Source: Microbacterium sp. AZCO (GTDB lineage Bacteria > Actinomycetota > Actinomycetes > Actinomycetales > Microbacteriaceae). From it: a stretch of 64,000 nucleotides of DNA. Shown here in pieces: positions 4,202 to 18,973 of the stretch. Made by a program: the position numbers and the translations under genes. The notes beneath the pieces are model-generated. The model was given only the letters and a program-made list of their open reading frames with translations. It searched no databases and had not been told where the DNA came from. Positions within the stretch are counted from its first letter, which is position 1. The number at the start of each line of letters is the position of its first letter. The DNA is taken from contig NZ_CP154857.1 of NCBI RefSeq assembly GCF_039614715.1, positions 3,968,001-4,032,000 of the forward strand, read 5' to 3'.

Positions 4202-4262
4202 TTGACTTGCGTGCACGGATCACGGATGCTGTGCGGGCCCGACTTGTCACGATGGAGTGCCA

Positions 4263-6599
4263 ATGAACCTCGCCGTCCGGCGTCCCCTCGTCGCGCTCTG
4301 CGCCATGCTCGCCCTCATCGTCGTCCAGGCGATCCTCGACCCGACGGGCCTGCTCGCACTCGTCGGCTGGTCGGGAGCGCTTCCCGCGTTCGACCGCGGA
4401 CTCTGGCCGCTCGCCCCGTACGTCGTGTTCGTCCCGGTGCTCCTCGGCATGACGTGGTGGACGACGGCGCGCGCCGGCGACCGCTACTGGACGCTCGTTC
4501 CCGGCCTCGTGCTCAGCGTCCTGCTCGCGCAGGCGGCGACGGCGCTCGCGATGACGGGCGACCTCGGCGCCTCCGCCTGGGCCGCCGGCTACGTCACGGC
4601 GAAGGCCGTGCCGGCCGCGCTCATCGTCGCCGCCTTCGCCCGCTGGCTCGGCGGCAGGACCGACCGGGTGCGCCGAGACCCGGGAGCTGTGTGGGGTCCC
4701 GCGCTCCTCCTCGCCGCCGTCGCCCCGCTCCTCTCGGGTCTGTGGTGGACCGCCCCCGTCTACGCCCCCGCCGTGCCCGTCGCGCGGCCCGATCGCGGAC
4801 TCTTCTCGACCGCTGTCGCGATGCTCCTCCTCGCCGCCGCGTCGGCGCTCTGCCTGCGCTGGATGCGCGCGCGTGTGCCGGGCGTGCTCGGCGGCTGGCT
4901 CGCCGCCGTCGTCGCCGGCGCGATCGTCGGCGTCGTGCAGGCGGTCGTCGCAACGATCGCCGACGGCCTGCAGGGCGACCTCTGGCCCCTCATGAGCGCG
5001 TACGTCACCGTCGCCGACGGCCTGTCGTTCGGCGTGTGCGTGGGCTGGATCGCCGGCGTCGGCGCGCTCGTCGCCGATCGCGTGCGCGTGGGCCGCGGTG
5101 CGCGCGTGCCCCTCTATGCGGCGGCGGCCGTCGCCGTCGTCGCGCTCGTCGTGTCGATGGTCGTGCCGTACGCCGGCGGGGCATCGGCCCAGGGGCGTGG
5201 GGCCGCGGCATCCATCCCCTCGCACTTCCTCCGCGCGAGCGGAGGGGTGATCGCCGACGGCGACGGCAACCAGGTGCTGCTGCGCGGCGTCAACGTCAAC
5301 CAGCTCGTCGACTTCTACGCCCCGCGCCCCGACGTCCCCGTGACGCGTCCGCTCACGGAGGACGACTTCGCCGGCATCGCGGCGGAGGGGTTCGACGTCG
5401 TGCGGCTCGGGCTGTCGTGGTCGGCGCTCGAACCGGAGCGCGGACGGCTCGACCGGGGCTACCTCGACCGCATCACCGAGGCGGTCGGCTGGGCGAAGGC
5501 GCACGGCCTGTACGTCGTGCTCGACATGCACCAGGACTCGTGGTTCAACGGCGCGACGCCCGACGGCACCGCCTGCCGTCCCGGCACCGACCCGATGTGG
5601 GGCTACGACGGCGCCCCGGAGTGGGCGACGATCACCGACGGCGCGCCGCGCTGCCAGTTCCAGGGGCGTGACATCTCACCCGCGGGCGACCGCGCATTCC
5701 AGAACTTCTTCTTCGACACCGACGGCGTGCAGACGGCGCTCGTCGAGACGTGGGGGCGCCTCGCCGAGGTCTTCCGCGACGATCCGACGGTCGCGGGCTA
5801 CGACCTGCTCAACGAGCCCGGCTTCGGCGAGACCGCGCCCGTCACGACCTCGCTGCTGCTCGGCCGGTTCTACGACCGCGCGATCGACGCGATCCGGGCC
5901 GCGGGCGCACCCCAGATCGTGTTCATCGAGCCGAGCATCCTGTGGTCGGGCCTCGGCTTCGACGCGGGCCCGGCGGCGGGGTTCACGCAGGACGCCAACT
6001 GGGCGTTCTCGCCGCACCTCTACGCCGAGTCGATCACGATGGACCGCTCGCTCGGCATCACTCCGATCGTGTCCATGAAGCGCCAATTCGCCCTCGCGCA
6101 GCGGGTCGCCGATCAGTACGGCGTGCCCCTGTGGTCGGGCGAGTACGGCTACTGGGGCGACGCGGCCGACCGCGTCGCCCGGCTCGAGCGCTACGCGAGG
6201 CTCGAAGACCGGTACGTCCTCGGCAGCGCCTACTGGGTGTGGAAGCAGGCGTGCGGCGACCCGCAGGGCGGCATCGGCGACGTTGGCGACGCGCTCATCC
6301 CGCAGGACTGCGCCTCCGGCGACGACCTGCCGCCCCGCGACGACCTCCTCCGCATCCTGGGTCGCGCCTACCCGCAGTCGGCGCCCGGCAGCGTCTCCGA
6401 GCTCAGCGCGACCGATGACGCCTTCGCGATGAAGGGCACGGCGGGTGAGAAGGGATGCGGCCTGCGGGTGTGGTTCCCGGGTGCGGCCGAGCCGTCGCTC
6501 GACGCCACGGGCATCACCGACCTCGAGACCGCTGCGGTCGACGGCGGCTGGATCGTCACGGGCTGCGCGGAGGGTGACTACTCGCTCGCGACGAAGTAG
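4263..6599 (+). CDS. Membrane-anchored GH5 glycosidase (endoglycoceramidase-like)
   Basis: A 778-residue fusion. Residues 1-305 hold about nine transmembrane helices. Residues 315-700 form a GH5 (beta/alpha)8 barrel related to endoglycoceramidases and cellulases, with acid/base E518 in LLNEPG and nucleophile E627 in WSGEYGYWG; a short beta domain closes the protein. The ATG at 4263 has GGAG five bases upstream; a GTG six bases earlier is in frame but has a poorer site. The layout predicts a catalytic domain on the outer face held by an integral membrane domain, instead of the usual single anchor. It may act on glycans or glycolipids at the cell surface. Its 3' end overlaps the convergent gene by 22 bp. 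Confidence 0.8.
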   Translation: MNLAVRRPLVALCAMLALIVVQAILDPTGLLALVGWSGALPAFDRGLWPLAPYVVFVPVLLGMTWWTTARAGDRYWTLVPGLVLSVLLAQAATALAMTGDLGASAWAAGYVTAKAVPAALIVAAFARWLGGRTDRVRRDPGAVWGPALLLAAVAPLLSGLWWTAPVYAPAVPVARPDRGLFSTAVAMLLLAAASALCLRWMRARVPGVLGGWLAAVVAGAIVGVVQAVVATIADGLQGDLWPLMSAYVTVADGLSFGVCVGWIAGVGALVADRVRVGRGARVPLYAAAAVAVVALVVSMVVPYAGGASAQGRGAAASIPSHFLRASGGVIADGDGNQVLLRGVNVNQLVDFYAPRPDVPVTRPLTEDDFAGIAAEGFDVVRLGLSWSALEPERGRLDRGYLDRITEAVGWAKAHGLYVVLDMHQDSWFNGATPDGTACRPGTDPMWGYDGAPEWATITDGAPRCQFQGRDISPAGDRAFQNFFFDTDGVQTALVETWGRLAEVFRDDPTVAGYDLLNEPGFGETAPVTTSLLLGRFYDRAIDAIRAAGAPQIVFIEPSILWSGLGFDAGPAAGFTQDANWAFSPHLYAESITMDRSLGITPIVSMKRQFALAQRVADQYGVPLWSGEYGYWGDAADRVARLERYARLEDRYVLGSAYWVWKQACGDPQGGIGDVGDALIPQDCASGDDLPPRDDLLRILGRAYPQSAPGSVSELSATDDAFAMKGTAGEKGCGLRVWFPGAAEPSLDATGITDLETAAVDGGWIVTGCAEGDYSLATK

Positions 6600-7504
6600 C
6601 GGTCGAGGGTCGCGGGATCGGCGATCGCGTCGGGGTCGAGACCCTGCACGACGACCCCCGACTCCGACGGGCGCACGAGGAACAGCTCGCGCGCGTGCTC
6701 GTTGACGGTCGCCGGTCCGTACCCCACCCGCAGGCCGAACAGCTTCCGGACGACGGGCCAGGCATCCACCGTCCTCACCAGGCGCGCGCGGTCGCCGAAG
6801 CGGAAGCCGCGCTCGGCGCCGTAGCGGCGCAGGCGCGCGGGTGAGTCGAACGCGGGGTCGTACGACATCGCGACGACGGCCCGCTCGCCCCCGGCGAGGG
6901 CCGCGAGTCGCGTGATCGTGAGCGAGCAGCGCTGCGGGTTCATGCAGCGGGTGTAGAAGAAGGCGAGCACCGTCTCCTCCTCGAGCAGGTCGGCGAGGGT
7001 CTGGGCCCGGCCGTCCTGGTCTTCGACGGCGATCGCGCGGAGAGCCGCGGCATCCACCGGGAAAGACGGCGGCGGGATGCTGCCGGCCGGCGCCTCGCGC
7101 GCCGCGCGCTGCTCGTCGAGCGCGTCGAGCAGCTCGCCGCGGGCCGTCCGCATCCAGGTCGGCGCGACGCTCCCGGGCTGCCAGCGCACGTAGACATCGC
7201 TCGTCGAGATGCGGTCGGCGGCCGCGCGCAGCAGTTCGGTCCAGTCGCCGGCGTCGCCGCGCACGGCTCGGGCGGCTCCCGCGAGGACGACGGGGCTCGC
7301 GCTCGTGCGCAGCTCCTCGGCGACGATCGCGCGCGCGTCGGCCGGGATGCCCCGTGCCTCGAACGAGGCGAGCAGGTGCGCGCGGACGCGCTCTGCGTCG
7401 GCCTGCGACAGGCCCTGGGCATGGGGGGCGTCCTGACGCAGATCGTCGGCGGCCACCGGCCGGGCGAGCAGCTCGGCGATCAGGAGGTCGACGGGCCGCG
7501 GCAT
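6578..7504 (-). CDS. SCO1/SenC-like copper/thioredoxin-fold protein
   Basis: A 308-residue protein starting at an ATG preceded by GAGGGG. Residues 1-115 look like alpha-helical HEAT-type repeats. Residues 150-275 resemble a SCO1/SenC thioredoxin fold, with C187 and C193 in FYTRC-x5-CS and H270 in VNEHARELFLV. SCO proteins bind copper with two Cys and one His, normally as CxxxC; here the spacing is C-x5-C. There is no signal peptide or membrane anchor, so it would be cytoplasmic. It is the last gene of a trio with a HEAT protein and a tyrosinase, which makes copper loading of the tyrosinase a reasonable inference. It could instead be a peroxiredoxin-like protein. Confidence 0.6.
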   Translation of the reverse strand: MPRPVDLLIAELLARPVAADDLRQDAPHAQGLSQADAERVRAHLLASFEARGIPADARAIVAEELRTSASPVVLAGAARAVRGDAGDWTELLRAAADRISTSDVYVRWQPGSVAPTWMRTARGELLDALDEQRAAREAPAGSIPPPSFPVDAAALRAIAVEDQDGRAQTLADLLEEETVLAFFYTRCMNPQRCSLTITRLAALAGGERAVVAMSYDPAFDSPARLRRYGAERGFRFGDRARLVRTVDAWPVVRKLFGLRVGYGPATVNEHARELFLVRPSESGVVVQGLDPDAIADPATLDRYFVASE

Positions 7505-7508
7505 CCCC

Positions 7509-8414
7509 TCACCCCTCCGGCTCGGGCGGACGCGCCTTGGCGAAGCGGTCGATCGACGTCTTGAGCGAGCGCGAACTCGTCGCGTCCTTGACGCGGTCGA
7601 GGCCCTCACGGAAGTCGGCGTCGTCGACGGCCGCCGCCGCCTCGGGGGTGAATGCGACGGCCGAGAGCGCCGTCGTGCGCAGCGTGTCGTCCTCGTCGTC
7701 GTCGAGCACGAGGTCGCGCGCGACGTCGGCGAAGCGGGTCGGGGACGCGGCCTTCAGGCTCATGGCCGCGAGCTCGCGCACGGCCGTCCGCTCGGTCTTG
7801 TCGGCTGAGATCGAAGCGAGCAGGTCGACCGACTCGGGGTCGGCCGCGAGTGCGCGAAGGGCCTCTTCACGCACGCGGCCCGAGCCGGACTGCGCGAGTT
7901 CGCGGAAGAGCGGCGCCGCGTCGCCGTGCTCGTCGCGCGCGAGGAAGCGGGCGGCCGTCGCCGCCGGCACGAGGGGCTTGCGCATGCCCTCGAGTCCCTC
8001 GCGCAGCAGCTGCTGGCCGACCTCGTCGTTCTCGAGGGTCAGCCGGTCGAGTGCCATGTGCCGCACGCGCTTGTCGGGCGAGAGGGCGAGGTCGCGCAGC
8101 CGGTCGATGTACTCGGCGTGGAACGGGGCGAAGCGCACGGGCTGGAAGGTCGCCGCCCCGAGGCGCTCGAGGGCCGTCAGCTGGATGTCGGGCGTCGACG
8201 ACTCGTCGGCGAGGATGTCGAGCAGCATCCGCATCGCCGACTCGAAGGTGTCGGCCTCGACGAGCACCGTCTCCAGGTCGTCCTGCGACAGGTCGGGCGA
8301 CCGCGCCGCGAGCACCTGCTTGGCCGTGCGCGCCTTGGGCCGCGTCTTGTGGATCTCGGTCACCTCGGAGACGTACTCCTTGCGGAGCGCCTCGATGTCG
8401 TGCTCGTCGGTCAT
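7509..8414 (-). CDS. HEAT-repeat protein
   Basis: A 301-residue, all-helical, acidic protein of about six HEAT/PBS-lyase-like repeats, with recurring signatures such as DKRVRHMALDRL and SGRVREEALRAL. It has no signal peptide, membrane segment or catalytic motif, so a scaffold role is likely. It starts 8 bases past the tyrosinase stop, and its own stop lies 4 bases before the SCO1-like start, which indicates one transcript. The downstream partner also has a helical N-terminus, so the two may interact or share ancestry. Confidence 0.7.
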   Translation of the reverse strand: MTDEHDIEALRKEYVSEVTEIHKTRPKARTAKQVLAARSPDLSQDDLETVLVEADTFESAMRMLLDILADESSTPDIQLTALERLGAATFQPVRFAPFHAEYIDRLRDLALSPDKRVRHMALDRLTLENDEVGQQLLREGLEGMRKPLVPAATAARFLARDEHGDAAPLFRELAQSGSGRVREEALRALAADPESVDLLASISADKTERTAVRELAAMSLKAASPTRFADVARDLVLDDDEDDTLRTTALSAVAFTPEAAAAVDDADFREGLDRVKDATSSRSLKTSIDRFAKARPPEPEG

Positions 8415-8421
8415 GGATGCC

Positions 8422-9657
8422 TCACACCGTCTGGAACGGCACGTCGTCGTACGCGAAGCCCAGCTGGGCCTGCCCGATCGTGCCGAGGTAGTCGATCGTG
8501 TCCCGGATGCGCGGACTCACGCCCGGCGCGGCGGTGAGCGGCGACGGGGTCAGGCCGCCGCCGGGAGCGGTCGTCGGGCGGGGTGCGGCGAGGGGCCCGC
8601 CCCACGGCCACAGCTTGTCGGCGAGGCGGTGCCCCGGGAGCGTCGACGAGGGGTCGAACGCGCGGGCCGCCTGCGGGTCGTGGCGCTTGAACGCCCACTG
8701 CCACTTCGCCCACAGCCGGTCGACGTTGCAGTGCAGCAGGAAGAACAGGGGGTCCTGCGGGGCCGTCGCGGGATCGGTGATGACACCGCTGATGTGCGCC
8801 ATGTGCGCGCGGCCGTGCGGGTTGCCCTGCATGATCCGGAAGCCGGCGTACTGGGCCGAGGGCGCGCCGCCGAGCGCGAGCGTCTCCTGTTCGGAGCGCA
8901 CCAGCGGCACGGTCTGGGGGCCGACGCCCGGCCCTCGCTCGACGCCCGGCAGGTTCCCCGCGACCCAGGCGCGCAGGGGATTGCCCGTCGTGAACTGCAC
9001 GCGGTCCTGGGGTCCGGGTACGCCCATGAACGAGCGGGTGAAGACGTTCGGCGCGGCGCGGTCGAAGCGCCAGTACGGCAGCGCGACCTCGCCGTCGATC
9101 TTCTGCAGCTCGCGCTCGAGGTCGAGCAGATAGATCCGGTGCCACGGCAGGAAGCCGGCCCCGCCGTGCGCCTCCCGGTCGGGCGGGCCGCCCACGTGCA
9201 TGTCGCGGAAGTCCATGAACCGGCCACTCGCCGCGCCGTTGAGCATCGCGAACGCCCGCAGGAACCGGTCGCGCTCGGCCGTCGACAGCGTGTCCGCGTT
9301 CTTGCGCACGCGCACCATGGTCGGGTGGCTCGCCTGCAGCGCGTTCGTCGTGCGGTCGCGCACCTCGATCGTGACGTCGCCGAAGCGCGTGCTCGCGGCC
9401 GGGAACGCCCCGCCGATCCAGACGCTCACGGCCGAGCCGTTCGCGGGCAGATCCAGATCGATGGATGCCGCGCCCGCGTGCGTGACCGCGTCGGCGAACA
9501 GCAGCCTTCCTCCGCCCGCGGCGCTTCGCGCCGACACCGTCACCTGCGCCGGCTGCACCTGTGCGGGCGTGACCGCGAGCTTCACCTCGACGGGCCGCCA
9601 CGTGACGTACGCACGCTGACGCTCGTCGTACCGCGGAAATGTCACGCTGACGCTCAC
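8422..9657 (-). CDS. Tyrosinase-like type 3 copper oxidase
   Basis: A 411-residue protein with the tyrosinase central domain: CuA ligands H154, H164 and H173 (DMHVGG, AHGG, LPWHRIY) and CuB ligands H281, H285 and H309 (HGRAH and DPLFFLLHCNVDRLW). Such enzymes oxidise phenols to o-diphenols and quinones with O2. The N-terminal 115 residues look like a separate beta-sandwich, and a Pro-rich C-terminal tail could act as a lid. No signal peptide is seen. The GTG start is preceded by a G-rich ribosome site. The CuB half reads LLHCN where HHxN is typical, so activity may differ from classic tyrosinase. It heads the tyrosinase, HEAT, SCO1-like operon. Confidence 0.85.
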   Translation of the reverse strand: MSVSVTFPRYDERQRAYVTWRPVEVKLAVTPAQVQPAQVTVSARSAAGGGRLLFADAVTHAGAASIDLDLPANGSAVSVWIGGAFPAASTRFGDVTIEVRDRTTNALQASHPTMVRVRKNADTLSTAERDRFLRAFAMLNGAASGRFMDFRDMHVGGPPDREAHGGAGFLPWHRIYLLDLERELQKIDGEVALPYWRFDRAAPNVFTRSFMGVPGPQDRVQFTTGNPLRAWVAGNLPGVERGPGVGPQTVPLVRSEQETLALGGAPSAQYAGFRIMQGNPHGRAHMAHISGVITDPATAPQDPLFFLLHCNVDRLWAKWQWAFKRHDPQAARAFDPSSTLPGHRLADKLWPWGGPLAAPRPTTAPGGGLTPSPLTAAPGVSPRIRDTIDYLGTIGQAQLGFAYDDVPFQTV

Positions 9658-9698
9658 AGCACCCCCCGATGCCCGGTCTTCTTCGACCTCCGCGCATC

Positions 9699-9704
9699 AG
9701 GGTA
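9699..9704 (-). promoter_or_regulatory. Promoter -10 box of tyrosinase operon
   Basis: On the minus strand TACCCT lies 17 bases after TCGACC, a plausible -35. Transcription would begin about 35-40 bases before the GTG. Confidence 0.4.
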
Positions 9705-9750
9705 GCCCCGCGCCTGCGCCGGGTCGAGAGCGCTTAAGCAATCCCGGGGG

Positions 9751-9780
9751 TTGACCGGGCACCCGCGGGGGCGCTTGCAT
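9751..9780 (+). promoter_or_regulatory. Promoter of PPDK-N-like gene
   Basis: TTGACC at 9751-9756 is a good -35. With an 18-base spacer it pairs with TTGCAT at 9775-9780. The leader would be about 26 bases. It is back to back with the tyrosinase promoter, so the two operons share one control region. Confidence 0.35.
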
Positions 9781-9812
9781 CGGTGCGGGGGAATCGCGAG
9801 AGGACGGGGCGG

Positions 9813-12101
9813 ATGACGGGATTCCTGGCGCGGGTGCGCGCCGAGGCGGCGGAGGCAGAGGCGGAGGCGGGGGCAGCGGCGCCGGCACCTGCTCGGGATG
9901 CGGCACCGCGCGGGCTCCTCGGCGGCATCGCGAACGACGACACGACGATCCTGCCACGGCCGGTGCCGCATCACGTCCCCCTCGTGCCCGTCCCGCACCG
10001 CGAGGGCGTGCTGCCGCTCGCGATCGACCTGCTCGACTCCGCCGAGACGTTCACCGCGATCTCGACCGTCGCGGGCGACCTCGTCGCGAACGGACGGGTC
10101 GCGAAGTTCCTCATCGACCGACGCGATCTCGCCGCGCCCGTCGTGCGGTTCGTCAACGGCAACTTCCTGCAGGGCGGCGAGGTGCCCGACGCCGCGAAGT
10201 ACCACTACTACTTCGCGCAGGCCGCGTACGGCATCCCTGAGTCCCTCGACGAGTTCAACAGCGTCACCTACTTCACGCAGGACAAGCGCTACATCGCCGG
10301 CACCGTGCGCACCTACCTCATCGGCGACAGCGCCGAGCCGGTGTACGGGCTGCAGTTCTACCCGCAGGACCTCATCCGCGAGCAGCTCGTCGTCGACGCG
10401 ATCACGCTCCTCCTGGCCGCCATCCCGATCGCCGGAGCATCCTTCGCCTTCGTCCCGACGGGCTCGCAGCAGACGACGGCGACCGTCGCCGATCGCCTCT
10501 CCGAGCTGGGCGCGCCCGTGCTGCCGATCGACCGCATCCTCGACGGCATCCGGTACATCCCGCTCAACACGGGGGAGGCGTGGGGGTACCTGCGCATCTT
10601 CCCGCCCGACAACGACGATCTCTCCCCAGCCGACATCCCCGTGTTCGACGAGCTGCCGCTCGATCTCTCCGTCGTCGCGGGCGTGCTGACCCACGCCGTG
10701 CAGGACACCAACTCGCACGTGAACCTCAAATCCAAAGAGCGCCAGACGCCGAATGCCGTGCTCCGGGATGCCGCACCCGACCACCCCCGGCTCGCGCCGT
10801 TCGCCGGTCAGCCCGTGCACTTCGTCGTGGGCAAGGACGACTTCGTGCTGGAGGCATCCACCGACGACGTCGTGAAGGCCAAGCTCGCCGAGCGCACCGA
10901 CCGTCCGCTGCAGACTCTGACCTGGCAGCCCGAGACGGCCCTGCGCTCGTTCACCGAGCTCGCGTCGGGCACCCCGCAGGCGGCGAAGGCCGCCGCGGCG
11001 CGGTACGGGTCGAAGGCGGCGAACCTCGGCTTCCTCGCGCACCGGTCGGTGCTGGGGAGGGTGACGGATGCCGCGAGCCCGAGCGGCACGCGCGGCTACG
11101 ACCTCGTGCCGCAGGGGTTCGCCGTGCCGCTGCAGGCGTACCGCGACTTCATCGACCACCCGCCGAACTCCGACGTGAAGGCGCTCATCGATGCCTTCGT
11201 CGACGACGAGCAGGCCGGGCGCCTGACGCCGAAGCAGCGGGTGAGGCGCGTCGAGGAGATCCAGGACGGCATCATGGCCGCATCCTTCCCGCCCGGCGCC
11301 CTCGAGGCCGTGCGGGCGAAGCTCGACGCGGTGCTGCCCGGTGTGAAGAAGGTCAAGGTGCGCTCGAGCGCCAACGCGGAGGACGTCAAGGGCTTCGACG
11401 GCGCGGGCCTCTACGACAGCTACGCGGCCGACACGACCAAGCGGGACCGCCCGATCGGGCCGTGCATCGTCGAGGAGGACGCCGCGTCCGACGGCGAGGT
11501 CAAGCGCAAGGTCAGGCCGAAGTCGGTCGGCTGCGCCATCAAGGCCGTCTACGCGAGCCTGTGGAACAAGCGCGCGGTCGAGGAGCGGTCGTTCGCGCGC
11601 ATCGATCAGACGTCGGTCGCGATGGGGCTCGCCATCCTGCCCGTCTACGACACGGAGTCGGAGGTCGCGGCGAACGCCGTCATCGTGACCCGCGTGCTCA
11701 ACAGCGACGAGCTCTACGGCTATTCGCTGTCGGTGCAGCTGGGCGACAACCTCGTGACGAACCCCGACCCGGGCACCTACTCCGAGGTCACGGTCGCCGG
11801 GTTCTACGGCGACGACGAGCCGATGAGCCTGTCGATCACGCGCTTCGCGAAGCCGACGCCCGACGCACCCGTGCGGACCGAGCCCGTGCTTCCGCCGGAG
11901 CGCATGGTCGAGCTCGTCGACCTCGCCAAGCGCATCGAGCGCGCGTACTGCCGCGCGACACCCGGGTACTTCCGCGGTGGCTGCGCGAACGTCGCGGGTG
12001 CGAACGGTGAGGAGAAGGAGAACTCGCTCGACCTCGAGGTGAAGATCCTCGAGAACGGGCACCTCGTCATGAAGCAGGTGCGCGAGTTCGGCGGGCGCTG
12101 A
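9813..12101 (+). CDS. PEP/pyruvate-binding (PPDK N-terminal-like) ATP-grasp protein
   Basis: A 762-residue protein from ATG; an in-frame GTG lies 30 bases upstream. Its C-terminal 370 residues resemble the nucleotide-binding N-terminal domain of pyruvate phosphate dikinase and PEP synthase: GSKAANLGFL near residue 399 and KVRSSANAEDVKGFDGAGLYD near 515. The phosphohistidine swivelling domain and PEP barrel are absent, so it cannot be a full dikinase. The first 380 residues match nothing I recognise; they are preceded by an Ala/Glu-rich stretch. It is followed 86 bp later by the CHAT and MBL genes. It may phosphorylate or adenylate a partner; the function is unknown. Confidence 0.65.
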   Translation: MTGFLARVRAEAAEAEAEAGAAAPAPARDAAPRGLLGGIANDDTTILPRPVPHHVPLVPVPHREGVLPLAIDLLDSAETFTAISTVAGDLVANGRVAKFLIDRRDLAAPVVRFVNGNFLQGGEVPDAAKYHYYFAQAAYGIPESLDEFNSVTYFTQDKRYIAGTVRTYLIGDSAEPVYGLQFYPQDLIREQLVVDAITLLLAAIPIAGASFAFVPTGSQQTTATVADRLSELGAPVLPIDRILDGIRYIPLNTGEAWGYLRIFPPDNDDLSPADIPVFDELPLDLSVVAGVLTHAVQDTNSHVNLKSKERQTPNAVLRDAAPDHPRLAPFAGQPVHFVVGKDDFVLEASTDDVVKAKLAERTDRPLQTLTWQPETALRSFTELASGTPQAAKAAAARYGSKAANLGFLAHRSVLGRVTDAASPSGTRGYDLVPQGFAVPLQAYRDFIDHPPNSDVKALIDAFVDDEQAGRLTPKQRVRRVEEIQDGIMAASFPPGALEAVRAKLDAVLPGVKKVKVRSSANAEDVKGFDGAGLYDSYAADTTKRDRPIGPCIVEEDAASDGEVKRKVRPKSVGCAIKAVYASLWNKRAVEERSFARIDQTSVAMGLAILPVYDTESEVAANAVIVTRVLNSDELYGYSLSVQLGDNLVTNPDPGTYSEVTVAGFYGDDEPMSLSITRFAKPTPDAPVRTEPVLPPERMVELVDLAKRIERAYCRATPGYFRGGCANVAGANGEEKENSLDLEVKILENGHLVMKQVREFGGR

Positions 12102-12138
12102 GCCCGCGGCGAGCCTGTCGCGGGGCGGCGGGCCGCGC

Positions 12139-12144
12139 TATCTT
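12139..12144 (+). promoter_or_regulatory. Putative -10 box of CHAT-MBL operon
   Basis: TATCTT followed by GAGCGC places a start site near 12151 and gives a leader of about 37 bases before the GTG. Just upstream, CCCGCG and CGCGGG (12103-12108 and 12119-12124) could form a small hairpin after the previous gene. Confidence 0.35.
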
Positions 12145-12187
12145 GAGCGCATCGGGGTGATCCGCTTTCGCAGCCCGGGGGTGCGGA

Positions 12188-14794
12188 GTGTCAGAGCCAT
12201 ACCGACCGCCGCTCACGCGCGTCGACGTCGAGAGCTGGGCCGCGCCCGCCGTGGACCCGGTGGCGGCGGCCGCCGCAGCCGTCGCGCGCGGCATCGACCC
12301 CGCGGCGCCGGCGCTCGGAGCGCCGCCGGGAGAGGTCGCCGGGTTCGTGGACTGGATTCCTCGCGCCACCCCGGGCGTTCTGCCGCTCGTCCCGCGACTG
12401 GTGACGCCCTGGAACCCGGACAGCCCGGCCCGTGCCATCCTCGCCCCGGTCCGCCTCGCGATCCGCGCGCCGATCGTCCCCGCCGAGGTGGTGCCGACGC
12501 TGCTCGAATGCCCCGGGGTGGGCTCGGTCGTGCTGCCGGTCACCCGGGCACCCGACGCCCTGCGCCGGCGGTCGTGGAACTGGCCGTTCCGGCTCGGGGT
12601 CGCCGACGACGCCCTCCGCGACGCGCTCGAGCGTGGACGCCAGGGCGGCCCCGTGCCCGCGGAGCTCGTCGAGATCGTCGATGTGCGCGACGATCCCGCC
12701 GCCGTCGACCTGCTCGCCCTGCGGACGGATCCGGCCGGCGCTGCCGCCTTCCTCGAAGCCCACGGCACGATCGCCAACGGGGTCGTCTGCCTCGAGGCAT
12801 CGACTCTCCCCTGGCGCATCGACGACGCGCGCCTCGCGCTCGTCCGGGCCCTCTCGTCCGCCGTGCTGACGGCCATCGCGACGACGGATGAGGGGATGGA
12901 TGCCGCGTCCGCGGCGCTCCTCGCGACGGTGCGGTTCTTCTCGCACGCGCACCCGATCGACGTGGCGCTCACGGCCGGGTTCGGGCGCAGCATCCTGATC
13001 TCGGCCGAGACCGATGCGATCGCCGACGTGACCCTTCCCGGGCTCATCCAGACCTCCGCGGACGCCGTCCGGAGCGATCTCGCGGCGCTCGCCGGCGCAT
13101 CCGGCCTGCTCGGCGCGCCCGAACCCCTCGAGGGACTGCCTCCCGACGCGGTCGACGAGTTGGCGCGGCTCGTGACGGGTGTCTTCGATCACGAGTCGGG
13201 CGAGGCCTTCGAGGCCGCCGATCTGCAGACCCGGCTCGACACCGCCATCGACGCCGCCGCGACCCCCCGCTTCCTCCAGGCGACGATCGGGTCCGACAAC
13301 GTGCTCCACGGGGGTGCGAACGCCGTCGACGTCTTCCTCGGGCCGCCCGAGGAGGGCGCGCTGCAGGGCGCGGCTGTGCCGAACTCGCTGCTGGGCTTCG
13401 ACGATCCGGCCGTCGACTCGGCGCGCCTCACCGTCGTGCTCGCGCCTCTCGAGCCGCCCGGCGATCCCGTGCGCGGCGAGCTCGACGTGCCGCGGGTGGG
13501 CCGTTCGCCGAATCTGCGGCTTGTCTGGCAGCTGCCCGACCGCGGTCTCGTCCAGGCGCGGCTGCTCGTCCTCCATCGCAATCGCGTGCTGCAGACCGCG
13601 CGGATCACGGGACGCGTCGGCGAGGTCGCCGAGCTCGACGACCGCATCGTGCTGTGGGAGCAGACCGGCCGGCTCGACGAGCGGACGCCGTTCGACCGCA
13701 CCTTCGTGCTCAACCACGACGCCAGGGGCGAGTCGCGCGTCGTGAGCCACGCCGACGGCGCGACGACGATCCAGGCGCTGGAGGAGCTCGGGCCGCCGAC
13801 CGACCGCATCCGCGATCACCTCTTGCGTGCCACGCAGCTCACCTCGACGGGCAAGCGGGCGGAGGAGGCGGCTCGCAAGATCCTCATCGACGTCGCGATC
13901 GAGGGCAACGACCTGTACGGCATCTTGTCCGATCATCTGGACCGGTTCCGGGATGCCCGGCGCATCCAGATCGTGACGGCGAGGTCGGGCCGGTTCCTCC
14001 CGCTCGAGCTCGTCTACGACCGTCCAGCGCCCGGCCTCGACGCCGCGCTGTGCCCGAACTGGACCGAGGGGAAGGAGTGCGGCGATCACTGCTTCCGAGA
14101 CGCCGACGACATCTCCATCGTGTGCCCGTCGGTGTTCTGGGGCATGAGCCGCACGATCGAGCGTCAGCACGCCTCGCTCGCGGGGCCGGACGGCAACGCG
14201 TTCGTCGTCTCGGCGACTCCGACCCGTCGACGGCGGACTCTCACGGTCACGCGTGCTCTGCTCGCGGCGAGCCAGAAGGTGCGCGACAGTGACGTCGTCG
14301 ACACGGCCACGGCGCTCGGCGGGGCGACGCGCGCCATCACGTGGGACGACTGGACGACCGACCTCAGCGCGGCCCGCACGGATTTCCTCGTGCTCATGCC
14401 GCACACCGACCCCAAGGCCGGAAGCCTCGAGATCTCGGCGCAGCTCCTGCGGACGGGACAGATCGAGGCGCGGCACGTGACGGGCGGACAGGACGTCACG
14501 CCGGTCGTGGTGCTCTTCGGCTGCGACACGGCGGGGTCGAAGGAGGACCCGGCCGGGTACGCCACCCGGTTCCTCGCGAAGGGCGCCGGCGTCGTCTTCT
14601 CGACCTTGACGCTGCTGCTCGGCCGGCATGCGGCGCAGATGTCGCAGCGGCTCGCGACGCTCCTGAAGGACCCGTCGCGCAAGGCGGCGCCGCTCGGCGA
14701 CCTCGTGACGGAGTTCCGCCGCGATGCGGTGCGGGCCGGACTCATCAGCGCGATCGCCGTGACCGCGTACGGCGACGCCGACTGGAGGATGTGA
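12188..14794 (+). CDS. CHAT-domain (caspase-like) protein
   Basis: An 868-residue protein. The C-terminal part (about 600-868) fits a CHAT cysteine protease: catalytic His H739 in VLMPHTD and Cys C779 in VLFGCDTAGS, followed by a hydrophobic strand and helix (GAGVVFSTLTLL) typical of the fold. The rest, about 600 residues, is mixed alpha/beta with no family I recognise and probably senses a ligand or partner. It includes a cluster of cysteines (CPNWTEGKECGDHC) near residue 625 that could bind zinc. There is no signal peptide. The stop is one base from the MBL start, so the two proteins are very likely co-made. CHAT proteases commonly sit in bacterial immunity and regulated-death systems. Confidence 0.65.
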   Translation: MSEPYRPPLTRVDVESWAAPAVDPVAAAAAAVARGIDPAAPALGAPPGEVAGFVDWIPRATPGVLPLVPRLVTPWNPDSPARAILAPVRLAIRAPIVPAEVVPTLLECPGVGSVVLPVTRAPDALRRRSWNWPFRLGVADDALRDALERGRQGGPVPAELVEIVDVRDDPAAVDLLALRTDPAGAAAFLEAHGTIANGVVCLEASTLPWRIDDARLALVRALSSAVLTAIATTDEGMDAASAALLATVRFFSHAHPIDVALTAGFGRSILISAETDAIADVTLPGLIQTSADAVRSDLAALAGASGLLGAPEPLEGLPPDAVDELARLVTGVFDHESGEAFEAADLQTRLDTAIDAAATPRFLQATIGSDNVLHGGANAVDVFLGPPEEGALQGAAVPNSLLGFDDPAVDSARLTVVLAPLEPPGDPVRGELDVPRVGRSPNLRLVWQLPDRGLVQARLLVLHRNRVLQTARITGRVGEVAELDDRIVLWEQTGRLDERTPFDRTFVLNHDARGESRVVSHADGATTIQALEELGPPTDRIRDHLLRATQLTSTGKRAEEAARKILIDVAIEGNDLYGILSDHLDRFRDARRIQIVTARSGRFLPLELVYDRPAPGLDAALCPNWTEGKECGDHCFRDADDISIVCPSVFWGMSRTIERQHASLAGPDGNAFVVSATPTRRRRTLTVTRALLAASQKVRDSDVVDTATALGGATRAITWDDWTTDLSAARTDFLVLMPHTDPKAGSLEISAQLLRTGQIEARHVTGGQDVTPVVVLFGCDTAGSKEDPAGYATRFLAKGAGVVFSTLTLLLGRHAAQMSQRLATLLKDPSRKAAPLGDLVTEFRRDAVRAGLISAIAVTAYGDADWRM

Positions 14795-14795
14795 G

Positions 14796-15860
14796 ATGTT
14801 CACGATCGAGCTGCTCCCCGCGCAGCGGGGCGATGCGCTGTGGATCACCTACGGCGAGGGCGACGACCTGCATCACGTCGTCGTCGACGCCGGCCCGCTC
14901 GAGACGATCCCCACCGTCGTCCCCGAGCTCGAGCGGCGCATCTCGGCGCTGCCCGGCACGGCCGACAAGATCGACCTGCTCGTCTCGACCCACATCGACG
15001 CCGACCACATCCAGGGGATCGTCGCGCTGCTGTCCGATCCGAGGCGGGTGCCGGTGTTCCGCGACGTGTGGTTCAACGGGTTCCACCACTATCAGCCCGA
15101 GGTGCTCGGCGGCGTCGACGCGGAGATGGTGACGGGGTCGCTCGCGCAGCATCCCGATCACTGGAACCACGCCTTCGACGGCGGCGCCGTCATGATCCCC
15201 GACGACGGGCCGCTGCCGACCCGCACGCTCGCCGGCGGCCTGACGATGACGGTGCTCGCGCCCGACCGGGCCGCGATGGCCAAGCTCGTGCCGGAGTGGG
15301 AGGAGGCCTGCCGCAAGGCGGGCGTGCTGCCCGGCGGCGGTGCGCCGATCGTCAAGAAGGGGTTCATCCGCGAGGGCCTGCTGGGCGGGTTCGACCCCGA
15401 TCTGCTCGCGGCGTCGCGGTTCAGCGCCGACCCGAGCGCGCCGAACAACTCCGGCATCGCGCTGCTCGCGGAGTACGACGGCAAGCGCGTACTGCTCCTC
15501 GGCGACTCGGGTGCGAAGCCCGTGCTCGCGGCGCTCGACCGGCTCGAGCCCCGCCCGCACCGCTTCGACGCCGTCAAGGTCGGCCACCACGGCTCCCGCC
15601 GCAACACGAGCCTCGAGTTCGCCCAGGCCGTGCAGGCGAGGAAGTGGCTCGTGTCGACCGACGGCGCGAAGTTCGGGCATCCCGATCCGGAGGCGATCGC
15701 CCGCATCGTCGTGGGACAGCAGAAGCCGCCGACCTTCGCCTTCAACTACGTGACGCCGTTCATCACCGACGTCGTCGCGGGAGCCGGCGAGCGCTACCGG
15801 GTGCAGCTGCCGCGGAAGAAGGGGCCGGGCTACACCGAGGGGATCGTCGTCACGGTGTGA
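14796..15860 (+). CDS. ComEC-like metallo-beta-lactamase-fold hydrolase
   Basis: A 354-residue soluble MBL-fold protein. Metal ligands are visible: STHIDADHIQG (H66, D68, D70, H71), D237 in LLLGDSG and H264/H265 in KVGHHGS, with H295 in FGHPDPEA. The order and the KVGHHGS motif match the ComEC/Rec2 C-terminal group, which acts on phosphodiesters, but no membrane part is present. The ATG has GGAGG seven bases upstream, inside the end of the CHAT gene. Pairing of a lone ComEC-like MBL with a CHAT protease suggests a two-component effector or signalling system, with the MBL as nuclease or messenger-degrading partner. Confidence 0.75.
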   Translation: MFTIELLPAQRGDALWITYGEGDDLHHVVVDAGPLETIPTVVPELERRISALPGTADKIDLLVSTHIDADHIQGIVALLSDPRRVPVFRDVWFNGFHHYQPEVLGGVDAEMVTGSLAQHPDHWNHAFDGGAVMIPDDGPLPTRTLAGGLTMTVLAPDRAAMAKLVPEWEEACRKAGVLPGGGAPIVKKGFIREGLLGGFDPDLLAASRFSADPSAPNNSGIALLAEYDGKRVLLLGDSGAKPVLAALDRLEPRPHRFDAVKVGHHGSRRNTSLEFAQAVQARKWLVSTDGAKFGHPDPEAIARIVVGQQKPPTFAFNYVTPFITDVVAGAGERYRVQLPRKKGPGYTEGIVVTV

Positions 15861-15872
15861 GCGTCCCGCGGC

Positions 15873-15878
15873 TACCGT
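15873..15878 (+). promoter_or_regulatory. Leaderless -10 box for TetR gene
   Basis: TACCGT, then GGACGC, then GTG. Spacing to the start codon is exactly six bases and no ribosome site exists, so a leaderless mRNA is likely. Confidence 0.55.
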
Positions 15879-15884
15879 GGACGC

Positions 15885-16535
15885 GTGGCTACCGGGCAGC
15901 GCAAGGGCACGTACGAGAAGGGCCGGCTCCGCCGGGAGGCGATCGTGGATGCCGCGACCGACCGCTTCGTCGAGGTCGGATACCTGCGCGCCTCCCTCGC
16001 GCAGATCGCCGCCGACGTGGGCATCACCGAGGGCGGGCTGCTGCACCACTTCCCCTCGCGGATGCACCTGCTCGTCGCGGTGCTCGACCGCCGCCTCGCG
16101 CGGACGGCCGAGTGGTGGCAGGCGGAGGACGTCGAGGGCGACCCGGTCGGCGTCATGAAGCGGATCATCCGGACGGGCAGACAGCTCACCGCCGAGCCGG
16201 GGCTCATCGAGCTGTTCGTCAAGATCGGCGCGGAGGCCGCCGATCCGACGAGCCCCGCGCACGAGCTGTACGCCGAGCGCTACGCCGATGTCATCCAGTC
16301 CGCCGCGCGCGAGATCGCGTCGGGTGTCGACGCCGGATACTTCCGCGACGACCTCGACCCCGTGCGAATCGCCCGGGAGGTCATCGCCGTGTCCGACGGG
16401 TTGCAGCTGCAGTGGGTTCTCGCGGGCGGGGAGCTCGACCTCGTCGAGGGCATCCGGGCGCACGCGATCGGGCTCGCGGAGCGGATCGTGGTGGAGCCGC
16501 ACCGCGATCGCATCGGGGAGCTGCGAACGACGTGA
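15885..16535 (+). CDS. TetR-family regulator beside GH78 gene
   Basis: A 216-residue repressor. The N-terminal helix-turn-helix reads AIVDAATDRFVEVGYLRASLAQIAADVGITEGG with LHHFPSR at its end (residues about 17-62), typical of TetR. The C-terminal ligand domain is helical. The gene lies 65 bp before the rhamnosidase gene, in the same direction, and a candidate operator sits in front of the rhamnosidase. This makes it the likely local repressor, responsive to a released sugar or aglycone. Confidence 0.8.
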   Translation: MATGQRKGTYEKGRLRREAIVDAATDRFVEVGYLRASLAQIAADVGITEGGLLHHFPSRMHLLVAVLDRRLARTAEWWQAEDVEGDPVGVMKRIIRTGRQLTAEPGLIELFVKIGAEAADPTSPAHELYAERYADVIQSAAREIASGVDAGYFRDDLDPVRIAREVIAVSDGLQLQWVLAGGELDLVEGIRAHAIGLAERIVVEPHRDRIGELRTT

Positions 16536-16540
16536 ACGGC

Positions 16541-16559
16541 CCTCCCGGCCAGCGGGAGG
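16541..16559 (+). terminator. Hairpin after TetR gene
   Basis: CCTCCC-GGCCAGC-GGGAGG, a 6-bp GC stem just after the TetR stop, followed by ATAGAAA. A weak terminator between TetR and the rhamnosidase promoter is plausible. Confidence 0.35.
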
Positions 16560-16561
16560 AT

Positions 16562-16586
16562 AGAAACCGAGGACACTAGGTTTTCT
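16562..16586 (+). promoter_or_regulatory. Candidate TetR operator before GH78
   Basis: AGAAACC and GGTTTTCT form an imperfect inverted repeat around GAGGACACTA. It directly precedes the -10 box at 16589, so a bound repressor would cover the -35 region. Confidence 0.4.
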
Positions 16587-16588
16587 GT

Positions 16589-16594
16589 TACCGT
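16589..16594 (+). promoter_or_regulatory. Leaderless -10 box for GH78 gene
   Basis: TACCGT, CGGCGC, GTG: the same box and six-base spacing as the TetR gene upstream. No ribosome site is present. Confidence 0.55.
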
Positions 16595-16600
16595 CGGCGC

Positions 16601-18973
16601 GTGGCCTACTTCAGCGACGGCGCCCGATGGATCGAGCCGCACGAGGAGACCGTGCCCGAGGCCGGCTCGCGGCCCGCGCATCTGCTGCGCGGCACGGCCG
16701 AGCTCGACCGGCCGGTCACTGCGGCGGTGGTCACGGCGACCGCGCACGGCGTCTACGAGCTCTTCGTCAACGGCGAGCGGGTCGGCGATCAGGAGCTCAC
16801 CCCGGGCTTCACCGCCTACCGCAGTCGCCTGCAGGTGCAGACCTGGGATGTCGCGGCGCTCCTCCGCCCCGGTGAGAACGTCGTCGCGGCGATCCTGAGC
16901 GACGGGTGGTTCCGCGGGCGGCATGGTTTCGAGCGGCATGCCGACGGCTTCGGCACCCGCACGGCCTTCATCGCCGAGCTCACGGTGACCCACGACGACG
17001 GCTCGGCGACGACCGCATCGACGGGGTCGGCGTGGCGCTCGCACCCCGGCCACATCCTGCGGGCCGACCTCATGGACGGACAGGGCGTCGACTTCCGGCT
17101 GCTCGACCCGGACTGGGCCCGCCCGGGCGGCGGTGAGGACGGCTGGTGGCCCGTGGGCATCGGCGAAGGCGGGCTCTACGACGACGCCGCGAGGTTCATC
17201 GCCGAGGAGTCGGCGCCCGTCCGCCGCATGGAGGAGCTCGCGCCCGTCTCGCTCAGCCGGCCGAAGCCCGGCACGGTCGTCGTCGACTTCGGCCAGAACA
17301 TCAACGGGTGGGTGCGGCTCTCGCGCCTCGGGGCGGCGGGGGTGCGGACCGTGCTGACCCACGGCGAGGTGCTCGGCGCCGGGGGCGAGGTGAGCACCGA
17401 GAACATCCGCGCGTTCGACTTCGCGGCGCGGACGCCGCTGCCCGCCGGCCAGGTCGACGAGGTCATCTCGGCCGGGCGCGACGGCGATGTGTTCGAGCCC
17501 CGTCACACCACTCACGGCTTCCGGTACGTGCAGCTCGACGGAGCCCCGGACGACCTCGAGCCCGCCGATCTGCGCGCCGTCGTCGTGCACACCGACCTCA
17601 CGCGTGTCGGCACCTTCCGCTCGAGCGACCCGCGGCTCGACGCCCTCCACGAGGCGACCATGTGGAGCCTGCGCGACAACGCGTGCGACATCCCGACCGA
17701 CTGCCCGCAGCGCGAGCGCTCGGGCTTCACGGGCGACTGGCAGATCTTCGTCGCGACAGCTGCGCAGCTCTACGACGTGCGAGCCTTCTCGGAGAAGTGG
17801 CTGCGCGATCTCGCGGTCGACCAGTGGGACGACGGCCGCGTGCCGACGATCGTGCCCAGCCCCGCCGGCAACGGACCCTCCGGACGCTGGCTCGACGACA
17901 TGTCGGCGGGCTCCGCGGGCTGGGGCGACGCGGCGGTCATCGTGCCGTGGGAGCTGTGGCGCGCGTACGGCGACCTCGACGCGCTGCGTCGCGCACTGCC
18001 GGCCGCCGTGCGGTGGGTCGACTTCGCCGCCGGGGCGGCGGCCGGGGCGCGGCATCCGGATCGCGCCGCTGTGCGGCCCGTGCCCGCTGAGCACGAGGAC
18101 TCGCTCTGGGACACCGGCTTCCACTTCGGAGAGTGGCTCGAGCCGGGCGTCGCGCCCAACCCCGACCCGAGCGTCGACCACGGCATCGTCGCGACGGCGT
18201 TCCTGCACCGCTCGGCGACACTGCTGGCACGGATGCTGCGCCTCGCCGCCGACGATCGGGCCGACCGCTACGCACGCATCGCCGACCGCGCCGCGCATGC
18301 CTGGCGCGCCGAGTACCTCGCGCCCGACGGCACGATCGCCGAGGAGTCGCAGGCGAACTACGCCCGCGCTCTCGCGTTCGGGCTCATCCCCGCCGACCTC
18401 CGCCCTGCGGCGGCCGACCGGCTCGCCGCGCTCGTCGGTCAGAACGGCGGACGACTCACCACCGGCTTCCTCAGCACGGGCCAGCTGCTCCCGGCATTGG
18501 CCGAGGAGGGGCTCGTCGACGAGGCGTTCGCTCTGCTGTTCTCCACCGGCATCCCGTCGTGGCTCGAGATGGTCGACCGCGGTGCGACGACCGTGTGGGA
18601 GTGGTGGGACGGCGTCGACGAGGGCGACGTGCGCGGATCGCTCAACCACTACAGCAAGGGCGCCGTCGTGTCGTTCCTGTACGAGTGGATCGCCGGCATC
18701 CGTCTTCCCGCCGATCCCGCCGACGGCGAGGCGGCGTACCGCCGCGTCACGATCGCCCCGCACGTCGGCGGAGGCCTGACGCACGCTTCGGCGACGATCG
18801 ACACCCCGAGCGGACCGGTCGCGTCGGCGTGGCGCCTCGAGGACGGCGTCTTCCGGATCGACGTCACGGTGCCGGACGGCACCGTCGCGCAGGTGCGTCT
18901 TCCCGACGGCACGACCTCGGTGCTATGCGGAGGCTCGGCCTCTTACGCCTGCTCCGTCGACGACCGGGCGTAG
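16601..18973 (+). CDS. GH78 alpha-L-rhamnosidase
   Basis: A 790-residue cytoplasmic enzyme, without signal peptide, that removes terminal alpha-L-rhamnose from plant glycosides and polysaccharides. N-terminal beta domains contain YELFVNGERVGDQ and the DFGQNINGWVRL signature of bacterial rhamnosidases. The (alpha/alpha)6 barrel carries CPQRERSGFTGDW (C368 to W380, with the acidic residues at the active site) and WEWWDG with E667 as candidate base, then SLNHYSKG. The short N-terminus lacks the extra modules of secreted homologues, so it probably acts on imported rhamnosides. It is convergent with the IclR gene with 11 bp between them. Confidence 0.9.
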   Translation: MAYFSDGARWIEPHEETVPEAGSRPAHLLRGTAELDRPVTAAVVTATAHGVYELFVNGERVGDQELTPGFTAYRSRLQVQTWDVAALLRPGENVVAAILSDGWFRGRHGFERHADGFGTRTAFIAELTVTHDDGSATTASTGSAWRSHPGHILRADLMDGQGVDFRLLDPDWARPGGGEDGWWPVGIGEGGLYDDAARFIAEESAPVRRMEELAPVSLSRPKPGTVVVDFGQNINGWVRLSRLGAAGVRTVLTHGEVLGAGGEVSTENIRAFDFAARTPLPAGQVDEVISAGRDGDVFEPRHTTHGFRYVQLDGAPDDLEPADLRAVVVHTDLTRVGTFRSSDPRLDALHEATMWSLRDNACDIPTDCPQRERSGFTGDWQIFVATAAQLYDVRAFSEKWLRDLAVDQWDDGRVPTIVPSPAGNGPSGRWLDDMSAGSAGWGDAAVIVPWELWRAYGDLDALRRALPAAVRWVDFAAGAAAGARHPDRAAVRPVPAEHEDSLWDTGFHFGEWLEPGVAPNPDPSVDHGIVATAFLHRSATLLARMLRLAADDRADRYARIADRAAHAWRAEYLAPDGTIAEESQANYARALAFGLIPADLRPAAADRLAALVGQNGGRLTTGFLSTGQLLPALAEEGLVDEAFALLFSTGIPSWLEMVDRGATTVWEWWDGVDEGDVRGSLNHYSKGAVVSFLYEWIAGIRLPADPADGEAAYRRVTIAPHVGGGLTHASATIDTPSGPVASAWRLEDGVFRIDVTVPDGTVAQVRLPDGTTSVLCGGSASYACSVDDRA

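Follow-up and report, generated by a model that had tools for sequence, protein, structure and literature searches.

A co-inherited CHAT protease and ComEC-like MBL gene pair in Microbacterium sp. AZCO, a probable protease-gated nuclease system

In the present study, a stretch of 64,000 nucleotides from Microbacterium sp. AZCO (the window; contig NZ_CP154857.1, positions 3,968,001 to 4,032,000, in a genome of 4.23 Mb held in one contig) was analysed for a gene encoding a CHAT protease and the gene of a metallo-beta-lactamase (MBL) fold protein which directly follows it. The initial annotation had described these two genes and the one before them, which encodes a PPDK_N domain, as a single candidate conflict or signalling system. 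The three + strand genes and their motifs are real, and all of them show the codon-position GC of coding sequence in a window of about 71% GC. Only 1 bp lies between the CHAT stop and the MBL start in the window, and no gene lies in between. The features are as follows, with conservation given in aligned sequences.

9813-12101, + strand: PPDK_N (PEP/pyruvate-binding) gene, judged to lie outside the CHAT-MBL pair
12188-14794, + strand: CHAT protease gene, 868 aa
14051-14125, + strand: C622-x8-C631-x3-C635-x10-C646, within the protease region (Cys in 72, 68, 70 and 72 of 72)
14402-14404, + strand: H739, predicted catalytic His (His in 71/72)
14522-14524, + strand: C779, predicted catalytic Cys (Cys in 70/72)
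14796-15860, + strand: MBL-fold protein gene, 354 aa, ComEC nuclease type, predicted gated pro-DNase
14991-15008, + strand: metal-site motif H66-x-D68-x-D70-H71 (45/45, H66 in 44/45)
15090-15119, + strand: gating loop 1, about residues 99-108 (pLDDT <50 at 101-105)
15105-15113, + strand: candidate cut site L104-G105-G106 in loop 1 (LG in 44/45)
15351-15392, + strand: gating loop 2, residues 186-199 (pLDDT <50 at 186-199)
15381-15389, + strand: candidate cut site L196-G197-G198 in loop 2 (LG within the loop segment in 45/45)
15504-15506, + strand: further MBL ligand D237 (invariant, 45/45)
15585-15590, + strand: further MBL ligands H264/H265 (invariant, 45/45)

The CHAT and MBL genes are a real, co-inherited and conserved two-gene unit. 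A scan of public genomes with an alignment of 39 CHAT sequences gave 71 CHAT loci, many of them from metagenome-assembled genomes, and the record titles name Actinobacteria, Proteobacteria, Bacteroidota, Chloroflexi, Verrucomicrobia, others and one Methanoperedenaceae archaeon. This alignment (A1) holds 39 of 43 proteins; P0004 (the window's own), P0014, P0027, P0028 and P0029 were left out and P0002 was added. An MBL homologue was found by tblastn in 68 of the 71 loci, so the suspicion that the genes are never neighbours elsewhere does not hold for CHAT and MBL. In 66 loci the MBL lies on the same strand and starts within 300 bp of the end of the CHAT open reading frame (ORF), and in L063 the distance is 466 bp. 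In addition, four plasmid records carry CHAT by tblastn, with the MBL adjacent in all four, and three other genomes of the genus carry the pair with neither PPDK_N nor a patatin beside it. Over 60 loci, the distance matrices of the two proteins correlate with r 0.935, against a null maximum of 0.28 among 2000 shuffles; L055, L009, loci lacking an MBL ORF match and CHAT ORFs no longer than 650 aa were left out. This correlation shows co-inheritance, not function. In L055 (Virgisporangium, 9155-13327) CHAT and MBL lie in one long ORF; since the end of CHAT is in a different frame, this gene fusion is doubtful and may be a sequence error.

The CHAT protein consists of an N-terminal alpha/beta part (about residues 1-300), a beta-rich part (362-529), a helical hairpin (532-583) and the CHAT protease (about 590-868). 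The window's protein itself has no Pfam match; PF12770 was matched by 7 of the 39 aligned members (E<=0.01), at least one of which, P0012, lies above the curated cut-off. In the predicted model (predicted local distance difference test, pLDDT, 91.5) a CHAT/caspase-haemoglobinase fold is present around H739 and C779, which the initial annotation had rightly picked out as the CHAT His/Cys pair. The match reaches the last residue, 868, therefore no domain follows it, and the best structural alignments were to Csx29/TPR-CHAT (Craspase) and to separase. The list of structural matches, which barely tests the N-terminal 390 residues, contained no Ig-like or sensor fold for them. The four conserved cysteines presumably form a zinc knuckle. 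Furthermore, a stretch of 65 residues in the protease core is weakly similar to Borvo BovA (PADLOC; E 7e-4), which was matched by 17 of the 39 aligned members at E<=0.01.

The closest match of the MBL protein is ComEC, and the ComEC-like core keeps the full ligand set that had been noticed in it at the outset, with H71 and the other positions invariant or nearly so; we assign the roles of these ligands by analogy with ComEC. Positions 80-218 were unaligned in the profile comparison, where ComEC has about 60 residues, which points to an insertion that holds both loops. These loops contain the only segments of the model with pLDDT <50. Each loop carries a Leu-Gly site, and the sites differ from those of relatives that are paired with caspases: Leu-Gly is present in 50 of 51 CHAT-paired MBLs at loop 1 and in 51 of 51 at loop 2 (the aligned sequences plus 6/6 counted by eye), but in 1 of 8 caspase-paired MBLs at either loop, where Phe or Tyr is mostly found (Leu stands at loop 2 in 2/8). 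The alignment (A3) takes in 44 of the 68 MBLs found in the loci together with that of the window. The 6 further CHAT-paired and the 8 caspase-paired MBLs come from 19 MBL rows besides P0003, leaving out L091 (identical to L004), L096 (Lamassu), L102 (two, in a MoxR context) and L104 (no caspase found). In 10 of 22 genomes there is a second, weak MBL match, which falls in a frame of 774-898 aa and is probably ComEC. Among phage records, six had weak relatives of the MBL, one of them spanning most of it.

We give a probability of about 0.75 to the reading that CHAT is a protease which cuts and switches on its MBL DNase, and that PPDK_N takes no part in it. In the resting state, the ComEC-like DNase would be kept inactive by its two flexible loops. 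A trigger would be sensed by the CHAT protein, probably via its 590-residue N-terminal part, and the protease would then cut both loops at the Leu-Gly sites. The freed nuclease would degrade DNA; the outcome would be the death or arrest of the infected cell, the infection probably being viral. The initial annotation had proposed that the protease activates a target and the MBL gives nuclease action, and this part fits both the twin-loop evidence and the mechanism described in PMC12799240. For the pair itself, the computation shows conservation, folds, loops and the co-variation of the sites, and cleavage, DNA degradation, an infection trigger and cell arrest are presumed steps.

Several points weigh against this reading. 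Tblastn found no MBL in L003, L007 and L070; in L070 the contig ends there, but L003 and L007 have 4.1 and 5.7 kb of downstream sequence. ORFs of one cluster, lacking a Pfam match, follow CHAT in these two loci (L003 4284-6092, L007 8700-9695), and these could also be high-GC shadow ORFs. The Fisher test of Leu in CHAT-paired against caspase-paired MBLs (p 1.8e-7 for loop 1, 6e-7 for loop 2) overstates independence because the sequences are related. CHAT has no detectable sequence relation to the caspase and middle proteins of six plasmid operons of the Canu type, a term used here for an annotated caspase, a hypothetical protein and an MBL (the Klebsiella aerogenes prototype lies outside the comparison set): against the two CHAT profiles, the small profile of CanA (six plasmid sequences) gave probabilities of 0.1 and 0.2 and that of CanB 0.0. 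A CHAT protein made of fused CanA and CanB was rejected on these comparisons. Finally, PADLOC matches were not enriched beside 20 CHAT-MBL loci relative to 20 control stretches of the same genomes: 10 rows for 133 neighbour genes (mad3, type II methyltransferase, PDC-S05, BrxH, PsyrT, DpdF) against 9 rows for 138 genes (mad2, mad3, mad8, RtcR, IetA), with models at E<=1e-20, rough gene calls, families counted rather than genes, and a few neighbour genes being further patatins.

A patatin-like phospholipase gene lies within 700 bp upstream of CHAT on the same strand in 34 of the 71 loci, often only a few bases off, and in 62 loci the sequence available before the CHAT ORF is longer than 900 bp. 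The patatin of L002 matched Pfam with E 6e-22, and L009 also has one, as read from coordinates. All 23 aligned patatins keep the GGGxR loop, the catalytic-serine motif VSGG and the DGG motif unchanged. CHAT and patatin distances correlate with r 0.835 over 34 loci. Where there is no patatin, the preceding gene varies and in some loci has no Pfam match; it encodes a Tle1-like lipase (L071), a trypsin/STAND-like protein (L036), a TPR-CHAT protein (L052), an SH3 protein (L054), an FAD-binding protein (L067), an amino-acid permease (L004), DUF4384 (L015), ThiC (L022) or LGT (L014), and several of these are plainly unrelated to the pair. The trypsin/STAND-like protein (L036, 6525-9179) and the 2151-aa TPR protein with its own CHAT domain (L052, 3163-9615) hint at an upstream sensor. 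A second patatin-like gene lies on the other strand 1.2-2.2 kb past the CHAT ORF end in L056 (12788-13999) and L072 (14399-15598).

The recurring lipase suggests that the upstream patatin may be a second effector of the CHAT protease. As a tentative extension, for which we would not claim even odds, one CHAT protease may direct two executioners, unlocking the DNase through the twin Leu-Gly gates and licensing a phospholipase, which is a patatin in 34 loci and Tle1-like in one, so that both DNA and membrane are hit; the Microbacterium pair would be the DNase-only form. Since loop sequence and protease type co-vary, the gates of the substrate would have been re-tuned upon protease swap. If this is true, the system would be a module for bacterial death that resembles a caspase cascade in its design. 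The patatin as a second Leu-Gly substrate was rejected, as LGG occurs in only 5 of 23 patatins at scattered positions.

There is a small chance that the CHAT-MBL pair is a protease-nuclease unit that acts in programmed death or in a response to stress, for example in DNA damage or development, and not against phage. The lack of defence-gene enrichment around the 20 loci is in keeping with this, and the four conserved cysteines could sense redox or metals. On the other side, the nearest PADLOC and NCBIfam relatives of the MBL are the defence enzymes LmuA, Avs1a and the reverse transcriptase-associated MBL, and it is 31-38% identical to the nucleases of the Canu-type plasmid operons. The presence of the pair is also patchy: it is carried on plasmids, and 4 of the 366 genomes surveyed in the genus have a full-length CHAT (one further genome has a short weak match); in this survey the best two candidates per genome were scored for CHAT and PPDK_N.

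It is improbable that the MBL is another hydrolase, such as a messenger phosphodiesterase or a phosphorylcholine esterase, with loops for binding, rather than a gated nuclease. Equally doubtful is that the pair in Microbacterium is a remnant of a lipase-CHAT-MBL system that has lost its main effector. No patatin was found among the ten genes scanned around the pair in the window, nor in L004, L008 and L090-L092, while 34 other loci have one; but the four full-length CHAT copies of the genus have no internal stop, the four MBLs beside them keep both LG sites, and the window's own proteins retain the intact dyad and the metal ligands.

The PPDK_N gene (AMP/ATP-binding domain PF01326, E 2e-19, residues 409-723; alternative upstream start GTG at 9783) shares its strand with the pair across a gap of 86 bp. 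This same-strand run extends into the TetR and rhamnosidase genes, therefore strand alone cannot define a trio. The PPDK_N profile matched none of the 71 CHAT loci. In the genus survey, a full-length PPDK_N was present in 4 of 366 genomes; the matches in three further genomes were all short and were assigned to ordinary PEP-synthase-like proteins. A full-length PPDK_N and CHAT occur together in one genome, the window's own. In the wider class (394 genomes, E<=1e-30) PPDK_N was found in the window's genome only, and an order-level search of 396 genomes gave only short matches apart from the window's. L078 (G205) and L110 (G678) keep a SCO1-HEAT-tyrosinase block with the divergent PPDK_N, matching window positions 6612/6675 to 12102/12111, and their similarity ends just past the PPDK_N stop codon at 12101; the 20-kb stretches of both loci contain no CHAT or MBL. 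In L079 (G125), PPDK_N is surrounded by neither the tyrosinase block nor CHAT. A GLLGG in its N-terminal extension (residues 44-48 from GTG 9783, window 9912-9926) resembles loop 2 of the MBL; it was judged to be chance, as 0.37 LGG are expected in that protein, the relative P0048 has GLLGT at this place and the place is a gap in 118 of the 121 aligned rows.

PPDK_N was judged to belong with the tyrosinase-HEAT-SCO1 block, and its place beside the pair is most likely a chance of insertion, because it is absent from the CHAT loci, meets a CHAT in only one genus genome and keeps its block without the pair. On the same evidence PPDK_N was rejected as a partner of CHAT-MBL: in the genomes searched the two are never neighbours elsewhere, and the initial three-gene system, with PPDK_N as a member, substrate or activating kinase, is largely refuted and very improbable, while its CHAT-MBL part stands as the conserved two-gene unit. 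The divergent PPDK_N with its SCO1-like, HEAT-repeat and tyrosinase neighbours (6578-12101) forms a possible copper-oxidase-related cluster. The surrounding genes, by Pfam where marked, are listed below.

4257-6599: GH5/endoglycoceramidase-like gene, an ordinary carbohydrate gene on the other flank
6578-7609, - strand: SCO1 ORF (Pfam)
7509-8414, - strand: HEAT ORF (Pfam)
8422-9657, - strand: tyrosinase ORF (Pfam)
15885-16535, + strand: TetR gene (Pfam)
16601-18973, + strand: alpha-L-rhamnosidase gene, an ordinary carbohydrate gene flanking the region

In a scan of 9500-16700, no sigma-70-type promoter was found, and the terminator-like sites numbered 2 against 1.3 expected.

Among the papers listed in our literature search, one, PMC12799240, bears on the CHAT-MBL pair; the word CHAT is absent from its main text, and prior notice in its supplement is possible. 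According to that paper, the partner protease of HamM cuts two gating insertions and frees the DNase, and Avs1a has two modelled gating loops and upon infection yields a cut product, which site mutants no longer show. The caspase-paired CanC has conserved glycines in both insertions, mutating either predicted site abolishes defence, and CanAB converts it to a nuclease; the nuclease also pairs with other protease families (PMC12799240). With a different protease, the pair described here matches the gate design of these gated pro-nucleases (Hachiman, AVAST, Canu). As in Canu (CanABC), the protease gene comes first and the gene of a ComEC-like MBL nuclease follows, and the MBL has two disordered insertions with conserved Gly (PMC12799240). 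Several features set the pair apart from Canu: a CHAT protease takes the place of CanA, which is a MALT1-like caspase with an Ig-like fold behind it, there is no separate CanB-like middle gene, the sites are Leu-Gly where Canu-type sites are mostly Phe/Tyr-Gly/Ala/Ser, and a patatin is frequent upstream.

Three plasmids with Canu-type genes deserve mention. The operon on a Sinorhizobium americanum plasmid (L094, 2483-7062) has caspase, hypothetical protein and MBL genes with a patatin-like phospholipase, which is divergent. On a Bradyrhizobium plasmid (L099, 1241-6083) a DUF2235 gene, which we take to be of the Tle1-like lipase family, stands directly before the operon, with an S8 peptidase and an AAA ATPase alongside. 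An Agrobacterium plasmid (L103, 907-10506) combines a TIR protein, two caspase-family proteins, a Canu-type MBL, a separate CHAT protein and an S8 peptidase.

Craspase Csx29 (TPR-CHAT, type III-E CRISPR) shares the CHAT fold and was among the best model alignments, but the predicted substrate here is the MBL, and the N-terminal 300 residues of the CHAT protein lie outside the match. Borvo BovA matches weakly and in the protease core alone, and we know of no MBL partner of Borvo. AVAST type 1 (Avs1a/Avs1b), Lamassu and Hachiman also join a related MBL nuclease to a protease partner; there, the nuclease is typically upstream and a trypsin-like protease is fused to another defence enzyme, and HamM and Avs1a have Ile sites (PMC12799240), whereas here the nuclease is downstream of the CHAT protein and the sites are Leu-Gly. 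By Pfam, no STAND, SMC-like, helicase or trypsin domain was found among the ten genes scanned around the pair, and the MBL scored 172.9 bits with the NCBIfam Avs1a equivalog, below its cut-off of 420. Overall, the CHAT-MBL pair probably adds to the protease-gated nuclease systems, and the PPDK_N part of the earlier idea is to be dropped. With it, CHAT proteases, to which Csx29 of Craspase belongs and whose fold is near that of separase, would join trypsin-like proteases and caspases as partners of these nucleases; going by record titles, this holds across several phyla of bacteria and in one archaeon. The two Leu-Gly cut sites make a sharp, testable prediction, and the relatives provide a natural comparison set in which the letters of the cut site change with the class of protease.

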